Assembly (NCBI GenBank): GCA_944989445.1
Contig: CALYLW010000052.1
Coordinates: 1,283,753-1,347,752, forward strand
Reading direction: 5' to 3'
From: Ampullaceana balthica
Lineage: Eukaryota; Mollusca; Gastropoda; Lymnaeidae
Length of the DNA: 64,000 nt
Shown here piece by piece: positions 10,325 through 64,000 of the stretch. Under the pieces are notes generated by a model, which was not told where the DNA came from, did not search any database, and worked only from the letters and a program-made list of their open reading frames with translations. Both the position numbers and the translations under genes were made by a program. Within the stretch, counting starts at the first letter, position 1; every line of letters starts with the position of its first letter.

Positions 10325-10709
10325 TGGGCCATCACCAGCTTCTAGTGACATGGAACTCTTGTCACCACCAGCTTCTAGTGGCATGGAACTATTGTCACCA
10401 CCAGCTTCTAGTGGCATGGAACTATTGTCACCACCAGCTTCTAGTGACATGGAACTCTTGTCACCACCAGCTTCTAGTGACATGGAACTCTTGTCACCAC
10501 CAGCTTCTAGTGACATGGAACTCTTGTCACCACCAGCTTCTAGTGACATGGAAATCTTGTCACCACCAGCTTCTAGTAACATGAAACTCGAGTCACCACC
10601 AGCTTCTAGTGACATGGAAATGGAGTCAACACCAGCTTCTAGTGACATGGAAATGGAGTCAACACCAGCTTCTAGTGACATGGAAATGGAGTCAACACCA
10701 GCTTCTAGC
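10325..10709. repeat. 33-bp minisatellite, about 12 units
   Basis: The unit is CCACCAGCTTCTAGTGACAT then GGAACTCTTGTCA. Variants have GTGGC/GTGAC/GTAAC, and the last units carry GAAATGGAGTCAACA. Because 33 is a multiple of 3, three long frames stay open by chance (for example PPASSDMELLS repeated on the plus strand). Those frames run across the SINE without any splice or start context, so I call it non-coding. Confidence 0.9.
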
Positions 10710-47130: not shown

Positions 47131-48892
47131 CTACAAAAAATTGATTCTCCTTGATTTAATTTGATTGTCGCAAAACTCGTCAATCACGTTGTCAAAATTA
47201 ATATTCTCAAGTGTTTCTCTTTCTATGCTAAGGAGTGCAAGATCACTGGGACTATCTTTTCCAATTGAAGCACGTAAATAAGACAAAATAAGCTTCAGTT
47301 TGCTGAAGGACCACTCACAGCTTTCAGTTGAAACAGCAATTGTTAGAAGTATTTGAAGTGAAATGCGCTTGACTCGGAAATACGTCATCTCCATATGAAA
47401 CAATAAAACCAAGAACATCCAAAGGAGTTTCCAATAGAACTTCAGTCCGGGTACTGAGAAGCATTTTTTCAGTCTCTGATTTATGTGCACAAGTCATGAC
47501 CATTGACGTCAGTGTCGTATAAATTAGCAAAATCTAAGCAATTTTAACGAAGTGTATCGACTTTTGTCTCAGCAAGAAGAGTTTTGACGTCTTGTAAAAA
47601 TCCAAATTTGTTGTTTAGATTTTTTTAGACGTAAAAACCGTGTTGATATCTCCTGTTGGAGTCTATCAATTACGCTGTTCATATCACGTGCAATTCTTCT
47701 TCTGCAGAAAGTCCTGCATCTCTTGTTAATTCTCCAGGCATCCTCCGATGTCGTCTAATCCTTCTGTCAACCTCGATTTCCCCAAGTTGTGCATCTTCCT
47801 TTCCATTATCTACCGCAACCTGGCTCAAATTATCACGAATGTTGACAATTTCTTTCTCAAGCGATTCAAGATCAGATGCTGCTTCCTTGAAATTCACAGT
47901 AGGATTCTGCAACCGTTTTCTGGACACGATCAATTTCCCAAGTATGATGTTCCAGAAATTTAACAAAACTAGGAATTTAAAGTTTAATATACCTGCCAGC
48001 AAAGTTCTGCATCACTTCTGGTGTCAGGCGTCATATTTGTATGTTTTGATAATTTTTCTAACAGCTCTACCAGTTCATCTAGTGAAATCTAGTCCTTCAT
48101 AAATTGCTTTAACAGCTTCTGATCGTGCACTCCAACGTGTTTCAGACTTCCTCTTCATTGTGATTGGCACAACTCTTTTTAATTCTTCCAAACGAGTTGT
48201 TGAACGAGAGAAAACAAAAATTTTATACTTTCAACTGTTCCAAAAACGTGATAACAACTGGATCCTGTTTAGCTGAGTGTACTCTTGGTAAGTTTAAGCT
48301 GTGGTTATCACAGTTGATGAACAATGCTCTGTGATTTCTGGCACATATTCGGTGTTGAAGGCCGGATATATGCCCAGTCATTACAGCAGCATTGTCATAA
48401 CATTGTGACCGATAGTCGGCTAGAGGTATGTTATTAGATTCTAGTTTCTCCACGATAACTCTTTCAATGCTTGCTGCGTCTTTGGAATGTATCTGGATAA
48501 AACCTAAAAACTGATTCTTTGATGGTTTCTTTTTTAGTTTGAAAATCCACATCCACAAATCTGATGACTTGAGAAAGCTATTCCCGGTGTCTTAGATCGG
48601 GTGTTGAGTCAAGTAAGATACCGTAGTACTTGTTTTTTCTGATTTCACTCAACAGCTGATTCCTTACAGTCTATGAAAGTAGGTGGATAAATTCATTTTG
48701 GATTTCCTGTATAAATAAGATACTGAACCTGGATTTTCTCGGGAATCTTGTAAGTGCTTTTCTAACAGTGGATCATACTGATCAAGTTTGATCACAGAGA
48801 GACAGGAAAGAGAGGCGGTGTCTGATGTTTCCTATAAAAGGAATCCAACTTGCTTTGACATACCCACACAATCCCTTGAGAGGAGAGACCTT
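47131..48892 (-). pseudogene. hAT transposase (ZMYM1/THAP-repressor-like), broken
   Basis: In minus-strand order: LDQYDPLLEKHLQDSRENPG; QNEFIHLL; KNKYYGILLDSTPDLRHRE (first catalytic Asp region, then a stop); SQVIRFVDVDFQ; NIPLADYRSQCYDNAAVMTG (second Asp region) with FINCDNHSLNL; ITMKRKSETRWSARSEAVKA; LNFWNIILGKLIVSRKRL; and finally LLTIAVSTESCEWSFSKLKL and LRASIGKDSPSDLALLSIE, the hAT C-terminal dimerisation domain. The order and spacing match ZMYM1-like domesticated and free hAT proteins. At least one stop and several frameshifts disable it. The nested hAT splits it from its N terminus. Confidence 0.85.
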
Positions 48893-55226: not shown

Positions 55227-58200
55227 ATGAATAAACTTAGCATCGACCAAGTAGATCTTAAGGACAAGAGGGTGTTAATAAGGTAAATGTAGTATTAATA
55301 TAATTTTTTGTCTTACTTTAACCACCCGACCTTTTAATAACAAACCTGAAAAACATTGTGATTGCGTCCTTCACCTTCGGCTTCGTTTTAGCTTTGGTTT
55401 TGGTTTACAATACTAATTACTGAAATGAAATGGGTCTTAATTATTAATACTTAATGGGGACTCATTAAAAAATATATATATAATTATCTGTCTATATTTC
55501 AAAAATTTATATTATCTACCATAAACGGTCAGACGCCCCTTGTATACAGAATATTAATATTATTTCCTTCGGTAAAAGTAAAAGCAAAGAGAACAGTGCG
55601 CTCCATAAAAAATTGTATTTTTGGCTGCTATATAAGCCTTTGTAACCCTTCAGGATTTATAGAAGTACTTCTGGAGCGCATCTCCCATCAGCTACGGGCT
55701 GTATTCCTTTTTCAAATGTAAAAATACATTTCATTCCCGGAAGTACGCCTCGATCTGCCATAACAACAATGAGTTACAATGAACAATGAGGGCATCGTTC
55801 TCTTTGCTTTAGCAATTTTGTTTTACGCTTGTTTATAAATAATAAAGATTTACGGGGATCGAAGGCGTTTCATGCAATAATTATAACAATAACTTATAAG
55901 TATAAGCCTTTAAGCTCTGCTAAAACTAAGATTAAAACTAAACCATATTTTTTGTTAGTTACAGTTACGGTTATAGCTAAATGAATTTGAATAAAAATGT
56001 GCTGAATAAGTAACTTTTACCTTTGTAATTTAAATTTAAGAATGTTGAATGAAGGTGTCTATTCAATCATTGCCCTTGCCCTTACTGTGCCTTACATTTT
56101 GGGTGAAGATTGAGATTGGTCTCATTCGTTAGCTAACATTCGTTGTTCCTTCACTAATAACATGCATTTTGTAGTGTAGAAGTTATTACATCTGCCATTC
56201 AAGCAGAAGGTCCTGGTTGCAATTTTTAAATTTTAAAAATGTTAATGTTTGTGCCCGTTCTTTTCCCTCTTTCTTTGCAAACATGACTTAGCAACATGGC
56301 TGTAAACTATGTTTCTCATCATTGGGATAACTTTGGCAACGTACTCTTCGTTATTCTCAGTGACGGAAAAGTAGTCATACACTGTAGTCATACACTCTCC
56401 TCAACAATACGTTCAGTACATGAATACTTCAGAAGTATATGGCAGCGAGGCAGAAATTATCGCGATGTCCTAAATAATTCTCGCCAGTATCATCATTTAC
56501 TTCCGAGAACTTCCTCATAGTTCTCCTGAGTTTACAATACCTATCATCATTTGTCTATATACTTGCTCTTTAGCGGTCCTTCCGATCATGGCCATTAGGA
56601 AGTTCTTTTGCCTCTCACACGTAATGACTTTCTGGTGCCATCTAATGACAACGTTGGTATGCCCACACAAATTTCACAGCCATCTTATCACACTGATGTG
56701 ACATCACCTTGCCACCAATGTTCCCTCTAAGTTTCATTGGTCCCTGTGCAAAGTAAAAAAACTTGTCTGCGAAGCTGCACAGCATCCATTTTTGTGCAAT
56801 ATTTTACCAAATTTGCTACGCTGTAAATCCAAGCTTTTGTGCGGCATCAGTCAGATATCTGCGCGGCTACGCAGCCGTGCAGCTTAAAGGTCACTATCCT
56901 GATAAACATGTACAACCGCATTTCAAAACACACTCCAATGAACGAATGAATTCTGCAGAAGAATTTCAATCCACTATTTATTCTAAATCATTCTGACTTA
57001 TCTGATTTCTTCAAGCTGTTGTTTGTTTGTTCTTTCACCCCTTTCTTTGCACTATTTGTGTATGCCACGCCACGGGTCATATCTAGTATATACTATTTTA
57101 CAGGGTGGTCTGTGTCTGTAAGAATATTTATTTTTTAAACATCTCATCAAATAATTATTTTGGGATTTAATGTTGCTATAAAAATTATTATAACAGTAAA
57201 TTAAATATTTTTTTACTGCTACTTTTCAGAGTTGACTTCAACGTACCCCTCAAAAATGGAAAGATCACAAACAACCAGAGGTATTATTTTGAGAAAAAAA
57301 ATGAATCTTAATCATGTCTTAATATTTCATTTAATGTTTTAATGTAACAATATATAAAATGTATTAAATAACAAGCTCTTCTTTTAGGCCTTTATAAGCT
57401 GAATTATAGGATATAAAATTCATTACAATTTTCCACATAGGATTGCGGCTGCCTTACCGACAATTAAGTATGCTTTGGAAAAGGGAGCAAAGGCTGTGAT
57501 TCTGATGTCTCATCTAGGCAGACCTGATGGGCGCCCAGATCCAAAAGCCAGCATGAAGCCGGTAGTTGCTGAGCTGGAGACATTGTTGGGAAAGTGAGTA
57601 CCTTATAAACAAGTCAGTAGCCAACTTTAAAAAATATTTGTTGAGAACAGTGGGGTTTTTACCACGTTTTTATTAACTCGCTTTCATTCCCGTTTGTTTG
57701 TTGGTTGGTTTGTCCAAGATTTTTTCAAATCTGCCAATGTAAAATTGAACCACTTCTGATGGTCCTAGAAATCTGAAAATTTTACCACAGATAGATCTTG
57801 GATGACAATGCATTGTATCAAAATTTCAGATCGATCGAATGTACAGTTATTAAATTATTGAACTTTTTAGTTTATCTATAGTCTATATATAAGGATCTGT
57901 ACCGTCTGCTTTTGTTGACATCCGTGAGTTCACCCCGTGACCACATCACAATGTTTTTAAAACGTTGGGCGGGCGCTTGTGAGGTGTTTGGTAAAAAAAA
58001 TAGAGGTAAAAAAATATTTAAAAAAACCAGGTTTTTATAAGTTGACTAAAAAGAATAAAATAAATAGAAGTAAAAAAAAAGATTTTTAAAAACCACGTTT
58101 TTATAAGCGGGCTAAAAAGAAGAAAATAAGTTAAAACTTATTAGTTCAAGTACTTTCATTTAATATGACTAGAAACGTGGGGCGGGTGTTTGGTATAAAA

Positions 58201-61200
58201 ATTAAAGATTTCTAATTTAGAAGGCAAAAGAGAAATCTATAAGTGAGAGAATGAGTGAACCGCATATGTTAAACCTCATAAGCGCCCGCCCCACGTTTGA
58301 TTCATATTAAATCGAAGTACTTGAACTAATAAGTTTTAACTTATTTTCTTCTTTTTAGTCCGCTTATAAAAACGTGGATTTTAAAAATATTTTTTTTACT
58401 TCTATTTATTGGTTTATGAGCAAGACAAAGGAGACAGCATATTTTTTCCTGTATACCTGTATTGATGAGTCTATTTTTAAAAGGCAGTGAGGAAAATGGT
58501 AAATAACAAAAGTAAGCATAAAGATGTGTGAAAGAGTAGGGTGCACATTTTGTTGTCATTTGCAACTAGAGCCTGTTTGAGTTTTGACATTTTAAGTTGC
58601 CATCAGAGCATGTTTGGCTCAGTTTTGGTTTTGGGCTAAATTTTTTAAATTAAAAAAAAATTGTTGTTCATTTTCTTTTGGTTTCTCATAAAATTCAGAC
58701 CATTAATCTATCTAACACCACACAAATCAAATGCATTACTGCTTGACATCTTGCTGTCATCGTATGATAAATTAAAAAAAATTTGATTGCATAATGATGA
58801 ATTTGATCTATATCACCTAAAATAAATTTATAATAAGACAATGCCTTAGGAATGATAGAGGTTGGGGGTGAGAGCTGTCTGCCATAGGTGGCACTTCAGG
58901 GTGTCAAATTTGCTAAAAAGCTGCCTGAGTACATGTTGGCTCAACAAGCAGTTACGTATTAGTAAGGGTATTTGGTAATATCAATTCTTGAAAGCCATCT
59001 CATTCTATGGTGCTGTACTGTCTGGTATCTTGTGCAATAAATGAATTAATACTGCAGTCAACAATTGTGCAATACTTGATAACAAGAAGTTAAAGAATCT
59101 GGATGGGCAACATATGGCTGATTAACAATAATATTCAAATTTGCCGCCTTTTGCCACAGAATTCCATCGAACATGTTGCATTTCCTTGCTGTTAAGACTG
59201 CTCTTAATAAAGGAACGGTTAACGGTTAAAAAGCAACTGGTTCACTGGCGGTTAGTGAGGTATCTTTCCCCCTCTAGCCTTGTAGCAAGTCAACTACTTT
59301 AGCCAGTGTCACCCGTTAATCTATATTAAAATTACTACGACATTTTTATTTAATTTATTGACTTTCAAATACTGCCAAGTTTTTCTACTGAAGTCTTATT
59401 AATGCTCAACATGTTTAAGCAACATTACTACAAACAAAAATAAATAGCTTGTATTGTGCCGATACATCATTGTCCTCTTTTAGTCCATAATTTGATTGCA
59501 TTTCACTTAGTTACTATCCAACGGCTAGGCACAATTTATTAGCCTGACCAACATCTACCGGTTGGATTCCAGTGTGGTTACCTGAAGGAAGTAAACTAAT
59601 CCAAACAAGTGCCAGTTGAACTGTTCTTTCATCTGTTGCTCAACTGGCTTGATTGTCCTGTGTCAGTTTTAATAATGGTCACGTTATTAAGGGTACCCAT
59701 TCACAGTTGTACTACCCGGGTATTATTACTGCATCAGGTACCTGTTGAAGCTGTAGTAGCACTTTTTTTGTCTATATAAGGTTGGGTGGCATTTTTGGCC
59801 ATCTCAAAAGATAAGGATTAAAATGCTTAATTTTATCTTACCAGTACCATCAACAAGATGATTAAATAGAACTGGTAAAATAAAAAGTGTCTGAATTCAA
59901 TAAATTGTATTAAGTAAGTCTAAATCTGGTAAGCTTAAAGAGAAATTCTGGGGGCAGACTAAGTTAAAAAAAAGGGGGGAATGTGGAACATTTTGTTTAC
60001 TGTAGGAGATATTTTTAATGAAGTGTTCCACTAATATAAGGATTTAAAAGTCATTAGCTAGTACGCTAGCTTTGCAACTTTTCAACCAAAAATAAATTGC
60101 AGAAAAATTAATATTTATTTCAAGATATTAATTATTGATTTATTATTTTTTGAAAGGCCTTTTATTTCATATACCTCCCAACCGCTGAACAGATCCAAGT
60201 GACTTACTTATTTGTATTTTTATAAGCTTTGACAATTGGTTATAGCTCAAACCCTAAAGACATGTGCAAAGTTCAATTATCTAAAATAAGATGGAAATAG
60301 ATCTACAGTGGGACCCGCTTAAGTCGACGGCCTCGGGGTATGAAAAATGGCACCGAGATAACCGATCATCGAGTTAAACGAAAACCAATATGGCGGCAAA
60401 ATATTAACATGCGCTTGAAATTTCTTTATAATTATATACATGATTAATCGGAATCGTATCGGAATATCGGTACCCTAATATTTCTTCACTCTTTCCTAAG
60501 GTTAAGACTGATCGTTTTTAAGGACCTTTTAAATATAACCCAGGGTTCCCACTCAGTCGTGAATTCTTAAAATAATTTTCCCGGTCTTGAAAGTCGGGAA
60601 AAGTTATGACTAGTCAGGAATTTTTATATATACAATGTATATATATTTTTTTGCCGAAGTAAATGACTTTGATTACGTCTCTGTGGTCATGTTTCGATTC
60701 CATTTAATTTATAACAAATTACCAGTTTATAATTGTCTGGGCATGCGTTAAAGGTCAAATTTTTCGCCTCGCCTCATCCCATGGCGCGTGTGGCGTGGCA
60801 TGCGTTTGCAATGCCTGTTGAATCGGCGAATTAAAAAAAAATAAACATATCAATATGGTAATTTTAAGTAATGCTTTTGACGTGCAGGATATCTGTCACT
60901 ATGAGACCGCTGTCGAATTCCTCCGTCAATCAAATGATACGTGTAACTTGTAATATAAATAGTAACAAATGCGGCCTTGACCATAACAGAATTACAACAG
61001 TGATGACGTGTATATTATATATATACTAGAATATTAAGAAAATGATTTGATTTCACCGTCACGCGCGAGTTAGTCACAGTCACGTATCTTACTGGTAACA
61101 AAGCAACAACAAACTTTTAAAAGAATAATAATAATTTTTTATTTAATTATATAAAAACCACCGTCGATTCTCGATACAAACCTTTATTTTATTTTCTAAA

Positions 61201-62814
61201 GATATTCGTTTATCTTAAATAAAATGATTAATGCATCAGAAAATGAATTAAGTTAAATAATACTATAACATACACTGCGAAATAATGACGGATTAAAGAC
61301 CACTACACGATTTTCGAGTACCTCTGGTGAATACATACTCAAAACTAATTCACGGAATCAAATTGAAAGTTAAAACATCCGGTAATTTTTATTTAAATCT
61401 CGTAGAATTACACAATAGTCGGAAGTCTCGAAGAAAGCGAGATGTCAACACTGTTTTGAACAAAAAATGCTAAAGTGCATTGCTAGGCGAACCGACGACG
61501 TTAATTTGCAAATTTGGCACTCTTTTGTGCTCGAAATATTTGGGCTCAGCGACTTGAAAAATCGAATTAACCGATGAAAAAATGCAAAGGCAAAGAGAGA
61601 ATTTGGCGGTTCCAAAAAAAAATGTCGACTTATTTGAGCTGACGAGTTAACCGGAATTAAATTAATTAAATTGAATTAATTGTAATTAATTTTATTTAAA
61701 TTTTTAAAAAAAAAGAATCTTTTTGTGAAAGTTATTTCTTATCTAAAAGGAAAGTCACGTTCCTCGAGGATTGTGTTGGTAATAAAGTTGAAGAATTCTG
61801 TGCTAACCCAGCTCCAGGGAGTGTAATCTTACTGGAAAACTTGAGATTTCATTTAGAGGAAGAAGGAAAAGGTTTGGATGCTGCAGGTAACAAGGTCAGT
61901 CAACATGTATTATCTGATAGGCCAGAGGAATTATGATTTACTTTATGTCTATTTCTAATACTAATCAAACAAACAAGATATTTTTATATTAACTAAATAT
62001 TTTTTATTGATATCAATTTTTTAAATTTGAAAATATCGTATTAATTTTGGAGATTTAAATGTAAATTTCAGGCTAAAGCTGATGATGCCTCAATAGCAGC
62101 TTTCCGTGCATCGTTGACAAAGTTGGGTGATGTCTATGTCAATGATGCTTTTGGAACAGCTCACAGGGCTCATAGGTATCGTTACATTTCAAGAGTTAAT
62201 GCCTGTGTGCATTCTAATGATATTACTAACCCAATATCTTTTTTAAAATGCTTTGATGACTAATAAATATTAGTCTATTATTTTTGATCCCATAAAAATC
62301 AACAAGATTGATTGTTTTCCTAAAATATTTAACTCTTTTAAATTTTTTTAATGTTCGCATGCTTTATCACTCATGTATTTACACTTTTAAAAAAATTTCT
62401 CTGACCTACTTACACAGCTCCATGGTAGGTGTGACATTGCCTATTAGAGCCTGTGGATTTTTAATGAAACGAGAGTTGGAGTACTTTGCTAAGGCCCTGG
62501 ACAATCCCAGTAGGCCTTTCCTAGCCATCCTAGGGGGGTAAGAGCAAACAAGTAGCTTAGTTCACACTATCTCTACTAACTTCAATGACTTATATAAATT
62601 GCAGCTTCTACTTTTGATAAAATATTTTTTTCTAGCAAATATTTAATAACACGCTGAATGTTGTATAGACACTTATTATTTTTAAATATTTATTTTCAGA
62701 GCAAAAGTAGCTGACAAAATCCAACTGATTGAGAATTTGTTGGAAAAAGTTGATGAGATGATTATCGGCGGTGGTATGGCATTCACCTTCCTCAAAGTGA
62801 CCAACAATATGGAT
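55227..62814 (+). CDS. PGK: Phosphoglycerate kinase, 5' seven exons; 3' part beyond window
   Basis: Exons: 55212-55282 (ATG 55227), 57230-57280, 57441-57593, 61750-61894, 62072-62175, 62418-62537 and 62700-62814, all GT-AG. They encode 248 residues, the N-terminal domain and the start of the C-terminal domain of a protein of about 415. Motifs in order: [18 protein letters not shown] (3-phosphoglycerate site), [66 protein letters not shown] (Lys of the nucleotide site) and [19 protein letters not shown]. The enzyme makes ATP from 1,3-bisphosphoglycerate and ADP in cytosolic glycolysis. No internal stop or frameshift, so this is a live gene and not a retrocopy. Intron 3 (4.2 kb) holds a foldback and a Tigger-like element. 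The last exon runs directly into a 63-bp array made from its own end. Confidence 0.95.
55578..55812. mobile_element. Possible short TIR element in PGK intron 1
   Basis: AAAGCAAAGAGAACAGTGCG on the left is matched inverted by GTTCTCTTTGCTTTA on the right, about 235 bp apart. No clear target duplication. Confidence 0.45.
56716..56893. mobile_element. hAT-type MITE, CAATGTTCCC family, copy 2 (decayed)
   Basis: Left end CAATGTTCCCTCTAAGTTTC; the interior GCGCGGCTACGCAGCCGTGC and GCAGCTTAAAGG are family-like. The right tip is lost. In PGK intron 1. Confidence 0.5.
57960..58410. repeat. Foldback element in PGK intron 3
   Basis: Arms at about 58060-58195 and 58265-58405 are inverted copies. Paired landmarks: CACGTTTTTATAAGCGGGCT with GTCCGCTTATAAAAACGTGG; AAGTTAAAACTTATTAGTTC with GAACTAATAAGTTTTAACTT; AACGTGGGGCGGGTG with CGCCCGCCCCACGTTT. 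A partial third copy (GGTTTTTATAAGTTGACTAA) precedes the left arm at 57960-58055. The centre is about 70 bp. No coding. Confidence 0.8.
58411..60305. other. PGK intron 3, gene-free part
   Basis: No exon-like frames flanked by splice sites and no element ends I can define. Confidence 0.4.
60306..61656. mobile_element. pogo/Tigger-like element, second copy, in PGK intron 3
   Basis: The left end CAGTGGGACCCGCTTAAGTC after a TA matches the right end of the copy at 21310-23211 read inward, continuing through GTATGAAAAATGGCACCGAG and AAACGAAAACCAATATGGCG. The right side has GAGAGAATTTGGCGGTTCC and GACGAGTTAACCGG, but the terminal CAGTCG is gone. Opposite orientation to the first copy; no transposase. 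Confidence 0.75.
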
Positions 62815-64000
62815 GTAAGTATGATTATTGGGGGTGGTATGGCATTCACCTTCCTCAGAGGGATCCACAATATGGATGTAAGTATGATTATTGGGGGTAG
62901 TATGGCATTCACCTTCCTCAAAGTGATCCACAATATGGATGTAAGTATGATTATTGGTGGTGGTATGGCATTCACCTTCCTAAGAGGAATCCACAATATG
63001 GATGTAAGTATGATTATTGGTGGTGGTATGGCATTCACCTTCCTAAGAGGAATCCACAATATGGATGTAAGTATGATTATTGGTGGTGGTATGGCATTCA
63101 CCTTCCTCAAAGTGATCCACAATATGGATATAAGTATGATTATTGGTGGTGGTATGGCATTCACCTTCCTCAGAGGGATCCACAATATGGATGTAAGTAT
63201 GATTATTGGGGGTAGTATGGCATTCACCTTCCTCAAAGTGATCCACAATATGGATGTAATATGATTATTGGTGGTGGTATGGCATTCACCTTCCTCAGAG
63301 GGATCCACAATATGGATGTAAGTATGATTATTGGGGGTAGTATGGCATTCACCTTCCTCAAAGTGATCCACAATATGGATGTAAGTATGATTATTGGTGG
63401 TGGTATGGCATTCACCTTCCTAAGAGGAATCCACAATATGGATGTAAGTATGATTATTGGTGGTGGTATGGCATTCACCTTCCTAAGAGGAATCCACAAT
63501 ATGGATGTAAGTATGATTATTGGTGGTGGTATGGCATTCACCTTCCTCAAAGTGATCCACAATATGGATGTAAGTATGATTATTGGTGGTGGTATGGCAT
63601 TCACCTTCCTCAGAGGGATCCACAATATGGATGTAAGTATGATTATTGGTGGTGGTATGGCATTCACCTTCCTAAGAGGAATCCACAATATGGATGTAAG
63701 TATGATTATTGGTGGTGGTATGGCATTCACCTTCCTAAGAGGAATCCACAATATGGATGTAAGTATGATTATTGGTGGTGGTATGGCATTCACCTTCCTC
63801 AGAGCGATCCACAATATGGATGTAAGTATGATTATTGGGGGTAGTATGGCATTCACCTTCCTCAAAGTGATCCACAATATGGATGTAAGTCTGATTATTG
63901 GTGGTGGTATGGCATTCACCTTCCTCAGAGGGATCCACAATATGGATGTAAGTCTGATTATTGGGGGTGGTATGGCATTCACCTTCCTCAAAGTGATCCA
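62758..64000 (+). repeat. 63-bp minisatellite derived from a PGK exon/intron junction
   Basis: The unit runs GTAAGTATGATTATTGGGGG, TGGTATGGCATTCACCTTCC and TCAGAGGGATCCACAATATG with GAT. It is the last 19 codons of the PGK exon ([19 protein letters not shown]) plus its 5' splice site GTAAGT. Donor positions recur at 62815, 62878, 62941 and so on to 63948: 18 whole steps in the window, continuing off the edge. Exceptions: the site at 63130 reads ATAAGT, and the unit at 63256 lost one base (GTAATATG), breaking the frame there to a TGA. Unit types: GGT/GGG/AGT in the glycine run and CTCAAAGTG, CTCAGAGGG or CTAAGAGGA. Open frames on either strand are consequences of the 63-bp period. Confidence 0.95.

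Follow-up and report, generated by a model that had tools for sequence, protein, structure and literature searches.

In the gene of the snail Ampullaceana balthica for the glycolytic enzyme phosphoglycerate kinase (PGK), the end of coding exon 7 is repeated head to tail, together with its 5' splice site, into the following intron. With a probability of roughly 0.7, this minisatellite was seeded at the end of exon 7, splicing takes place mainly at the first donor, the later donors are decoys, and the exon's own copy of the unit is connected with the array. In the proposed mechanism, the end of exon 7 would first have been duplicated in tandem along with its 5' splice site, starting the minisatellite and leaving 19 surplus copies in intron 7. 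The pre-mRNA would then be spliced mainly at the first donor (62815), resulting in the normal enzyme, and the later donors would see minor use at most. The exon copy would be linked to the array via recombination or common descent, and alleles could bear array-type residues at the exon end. This reading is built on direct observations, namely the anatomy of the array, its reading frames, the complete gene, a matching intronless sequence without an insert, and the residues that the exon end and the array have in common.

The PGK gene and its product

The window, that is, the whole 64,000-nucleotide stretch of DNA analysed (C52:1283753-1347752 in a 1.10-Gb assembly), ends within the PGK gene, which lies on the plus strand. 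The gene is complete: its 12 coding exons, joined in frame and compared with P0001, encode 414 residues followed by a stop codon. Seven of these exons (55227-62814) are located in the window, and the five others lie downstream on the same contig (Table 1). Exon 8 starts past the window end, at window-equivalent position 64203, and the exon 7/8 junction falls between residues 248 and 249. The length of intron 7 is 1388 nt when counted from the first donor and 192 nt when counted from the last. The original prediction had recognised the gene as PGK, in agreement with the match of the 248 residues encoded in the window to PF00162 (322 bits vs. a cut-off of 27). Over these 248 residues, the closest named homologues among the best 120 of the 8000 scored are those of the heterobranchs Elysia chlorotica (93%), Physella acuta (92%), and Elysia crispata and Biomphalaria glabrata (91% each), in keeping with the gene being that of a snail, and probably of a heterobranch.

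Table 1. Positions of the array, its donor sites, and the PGK coding exons in the window
Feature	Positions	Strand	Remarks
63-bp minisatellite	62758..64000	+	19 whole units plus 47 bases of unit 20
Donor of unit 1 (first donor), GTAAGT; presumably the main 5' splice site	62815..62820	+	no insert, 414 aa; consistent with the length of P0001
Second donor	62878..62883	+	in frame; predicted product 435 aa (21 residues longer)
Donors 3-5 (GT at 62941, 63004, 63067)	62941..63072	+	in frame; 456, 477, 498 aa
Unit 6 donor, mutated to ATAAGT	63130..63135	+	no GT
Unit 7 donor GTAAGT	63193..63198	+	in frame; predicted product 540 aa (6 x 21 residues longer)
Unit 8 donor GTAATA (one-base deletion)	63256..63261	+	in frame, 561 aa
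11 further GTAAGT donors (GT 63318 to 63948)	63318..63953	+	premature stop in each when joined to exon 8
PGK coding exon 1	55227..55282	+	from ATG; donor AAG/gtaaat; joins in frame to match P0001
PGK coding exon 2	57230..57280	+	in-frame joining, match to P0001
PGK coding exon 3	57441..57593	+	in-frame joining, match to P0001
PGK coding exon 4	61750..61894	+	in-frame joining, match to P0001
PGK coding exon 5	62072..62175	+	in-frame joining, match to P0001
PGK coding exon 6	62418..62537	+	in-frame joining, match to P0001
PGK coding exon 7 (AKVADK...KVTNNMD)	62700..62814	+	phase-0 donor; array unit 1 begins with its last 57 bases

The top match among the scored homologues is P0001, a protein of 414 aa encoded on a contig of 1700 bp from the source 'lgn'. 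It is identical to the product of the joined gene at 412 of 414 residues and contains no insert. A frame of 414 aa on a contig of this length implies an intronless sequence, and the contig was very probably derived from RNA. The match to this intronless sequence suggests that the PGK gene is expressed. P0001 is one assembled sequence, and its cluster holds a second member.

A second copy of the array-bearing gene is absent among the 26 PGK-family matches in the assembly. PGK-like genes are found on C253 (L011-L014) within about 31 kb; their aligned pieces show 46-71% identity to P0001. The resemblance to PGK is much weaker in a family on C260 (L015-L017), with 27-51% identity in pieces longer than 40 residues. 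The minus strand of C56 (L010:2703-3189) holds a processed retrocopy of the PGK mRNA that is truncated at its 5' end and interrupted by a single in-frame stop and a frame break. It was considered as a fossil of past splicing and rejected: its match to P0001 begins at residue 255, past the exon 7/8 junction, and it is thus uninformative on donor use.

Anatomy of the array

Tandem Repeats Finder describes the stretch 62758-64000 as a repeat with a period of 63, 19.7 copies, and 94% matches. Unit by unit, the repeat was confirmed to consist of the last 57 exon bases plus GTAAGT, as had been proposed. The exon copy (62758-62820) is numbered here as unit 1. In the contig, the complete array has 20 units; unit 20 ends 16 bases beyond the window, at window-equivalent position 64016 (L009:1469), and runs into the native intron GTAAGTCCATCC, with exon 8 further downstream. 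With head-to-tail units in the range of roughly 10-100 bp (63 bp, 20 copies), the array is a minisatellite. Like the minisatellite of IFI6, it extends across the end of an exon and carries further copies of the 5' splice site (GTAAGT at 18 of the 20 donor positions). When two units were used as a query against the 1.10-Gb assembly, all nine matches fell inside the PGK array; these counts are lower bounds, with one candidate region scored and very common words skipped.

At the last three unit ends, GTAAGT is followed by C; TGATT comes next at two of them, and the third is the transition to the native intron. Because of this, the duplicated segment may have comprised 56 exon bases and 7 intron bases. 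Twelve unit columns vary, a one-base deletion included. Units 3-7 reappear as units 10-14 with one difference, and one identical-unit pair is present three times in the array. These variant blocks, as expected from duplicating several units at once, suggest past multi-unit duplications.

The order of the unit variants also bears on the possibility that the array is an assembly artefact, or that the PGK gene is a silent duplicate, which is very unlikely. The array is known from one assembly, and to that extent an artefact could be suspected. However, 12 variable columns and a recurring run of five units would argue against simple assembly duplication. A silent duplicate, for its part, is at odds with the completeness of the gene, its match to P0001, and the lack of a second copy among the 26 matches mentioned above. 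Both outcomes, the latter as a non-transcribed partial duplicate, had been named in the original prediction as possible refutations, and both have lost ground.

Other repeats and elements in the window

Two other minisatellites are present in the window. One, at 899-2886, comprises 71 copies of a 28-bp unit with 94% matches. The other, at 10333-10708, comprises 11.4 copies of a 33-bp unit, which corresponds to 11 codons and is open in more than one frame; its 236-aa frame had no match in Pfam. On the minus strand, a hAT transposase dimerisation region at 47131-47490 lies just above the Pfam cut-off.

Donor sites and reading frames

The window contains 19 donor positions, 17 of them reading GTAAGT, and the whole array contains 20, with GTAAGT at 18; the last donor, that of unit 20, is at window-equivalent position 64011. 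The original prediction of at least 19 donor positions, 17 of them GTAAGT, was thus exact for the window. It had also placed in-frame donors at 62878, 62941, 63004, 63067, and 63193 and an open frame through the first seven units. These five positions hold exactly, and the donor at 63256 is in frame as well, but altered. The frame is open across the exon copy and seven further units, and TGA follows just after unit 8. Splicing to exon 8 from unit 2, 3, 4, 5, 7, or 8 would yield products of 435-561 aa with a normal C-terminus, and splicing from any of the 12 donors of units 9-20 would lead to a premature stop.

The donors are nearly uniform in sequence. Over positions -3 to +9, 15 of the 18 compared donor positions are identical; the remaining three are the altered donor at 63256 and the donors at 63885 and 63948, which have C at +7. 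Predicted accessibility is highest at the first donor (0.073 vs. 0.004-0.036 at 16 others, with 63948 and 64011 left out), which lends weak support to its use. In designed libraries, tandem donors of equal strength were spliced predominantly at the first, according to PMC6783452. That study, which covered no snails, also notes occasional exceptions to this first-come rule, due mostly to sequence at some distance from the site. Because the first donor gives the normal protein and has the highest predicted accessibility, and because near-identical tandem donors would fall under the first-come rule, we infer that the first donor is probably the working site in this animal. Since P0001 reads IHN and the exon copy in the assembly reads TNN, P0001 bears only indirectly on first-donor use on this haplotype.

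It would also be conceivable that donors 2-5, 7, and 8 are appreciably used, adding 21, 42, 63, 84, 126, or 147 residues after NNMD and perhaps altering the activity of the enzyme. Five of these donors match the first one over -3 to +9 and are in frame, and two downstream repeat units are used as donors in IFI6, as stated in the source cited below. Nevertheless, such use of later donors is unlikely. P0001 carries no insert, and when an isoform with two extra units was used as the query, the 21-residue insert was found in none of the 62 matches among 1443 scored candidates, which were those sharing exact words with the query and measuring about 251-798 residues. The missing isoforms are in themselves weak evidence, because 63-bp repeats are hard for short-read assemblers.

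The sequence of the units points in the same direction. Conservation of the donors was considered as a sign of function and dismissed: two of the six donor columns vary, compared with 10 of the 57 others in the unit, which gives no sign of selection for surplus donors. In 12 of the 19 downstream units, R replaces K242 and G or A replaces V243, and both residues are invariant in 11 compared PGK sequences. Consequently, the inserts do not resemble selected protein. Decoys and a series of isoforms had originally been put forward as alternatives; P0001, the absence of inserts from the 62 matches, and the first-come rule favour splicing at the first donor with decoys behind it. The array is most likely silent at the protein level.

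Among 171 collected proteins, of which 162 were scorable and nine unscorable, the repeated motif occurs in four (P0121, P0122, P0123, and P0127). P0122 was rejected as an insert case on account of its motif spacing of 33 residues, with other residues between and an unrelated-looking tail, and P0123 and P0127 were rejected because their motif copies are more than 430 residues apart.

In six units in the window (62856, 63171, 63296, 63611, 63800, 63926), AGA stands in place of the K codon AAA, and a pyrimidine tract is there followed by CAG (ttcaccttcctCAG). These sites are possible cryptic acceptors, and splicing inside the array is conceivable.

Residues common to the exon end and the array

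The sole differences between P0001 and the genome are T244I and N245H: the exon copy reads KVTNNMD, and P0001 reads KVIHNMD. Both differences fall in the exon copy of the array unit, and the I and H of P0001 are present in all 19 downstream units. Since the gene and P0001 differ at no other residue, a chance match between the array and P0001 is unlikely. On this comparison, the exon and the array seem to share sequence, by exchange or by common descent.

For the mechanism and direction of this sharing, we infer two options. Either an array unit replaced the exon end in one allele, through gene conversion or unequal crossing-over, or the ancestral form of the exon end survives in the array and P0001, and TNN is a later change in this haplotype. 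Unit 20, which adjoins the native intron, reads KVIHNMD, and this fits an ancestral IHN with a later TNN. Threonine occupies the first differing place (244) in 7 of 113 scorable PGKs, with P0121 and P0122 counted within the 113 and 9 of 122 off pattern.

The IHN of P0001 could in principle also stem from splicing at an array donor, the repeats having been collapsed by the assembler onto the exon copy. A stretch of exactly 31 bases, immediately upstream of the TNN/IHN difference, is common to the exon copy and units 6, 13, and 20, and 31 is the k-mer length of the Logan contigs. However, mRNA from an array donor would have to outweigh first-donor mRNA. In addition, unit 6 lacks a donor GT (ATAAGT), and splicing from unit 13 or unit 20 gives a premature stop in this allele. 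This origin of IHN is very unlikely.

Comparison with known systems

The IFI6 minisatellite begins at an exon end and contains about 26 copies of a 12-nt unit that resembles only the donor. For this gene (also 6-16 or G1P3), the title of Turri, Cuin and Porter (1995, NAR 23:1854) reports a minisatellite with multiple splice donor sites, and a passage of PMC4526556 states that two downstream repeat units serve as donors in human IFI6. The likeness lies in the tandem array and the 5' splice sites within the units, some of which serve as donors in IFI6. The PGK array differs in its 63-bp unit, which is mostly conserved coding sequence, and in belonging to another gene and phylum, and its downstream donors are only predicted. 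The sharing of residues between exon and array further sets the PGK case apart. Intron gain by tandem genomic duplication (PMC4974935) is similar in that a tandem duplication within a gene is able to duplicate splice signals. In the PGK gene, by contrast, the surplus copies sit in an existing intron.

A search with the array frame, in which the 8000 candidates sharing most words were scored, returned two proteins at E <= 0.001, P0121 and P0122. P0121 is a PGK frame on a 5006-bp ENA contig, with the same PGK exon (AKVADK...) and the same exon end. It contains a 12-residue exon-end motif followed by VS three times, 19 residues apart, and GTAAGT would encode VS. Its copies are thus found at the same PGK junction as those of the snail array, but its unit comprises 12 exon codons and seven others (VSWIIVI or VSWTIVI), in three copies. 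Because the unit boundaries differ, its origin looks independent, and these protein letters suggest a second array at the same PGK junction.

No described case in PGK was known to the author of the original prediction, and none is described in the titles or abstract openings found in the literature, where the searches were mostly made without the enzyme name; outside PGK, however, the IFI6 minisatellite is of the same kind. A minisatellite that supplies donors is already known from IFI6, and the PGK case departs from it in unit size, coding content, and the residues shared between exon and array.

Implications

The array presents a natural experiment in which the spliceosome chooses among 18 GTAAGT donors behind one acceptor in a housekeeping gene. 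A wrong donor would either lengthen the protein by a multiple of 21 residues or bring in a premature stop. In addition, the end of a coding exon here seems to have sequence in common with a minisatellite. Exchange between the two, if real, would endanger the protein, since K242 and V243, invariant in the 11 PGKs compared, are substituted in 12 of the 19 downstream units. A bolder and tentative proposal, held with less than even confidence, is that exon end and array recombine as a single unit, that the last 19 codons of the exon are rewritten as the array changes in length, and that such arrays recur at this PGK junction. If this is true, a coding exon of a core glycolytic enzyme would evolve in concert with the adjoining intronic minisatellite.
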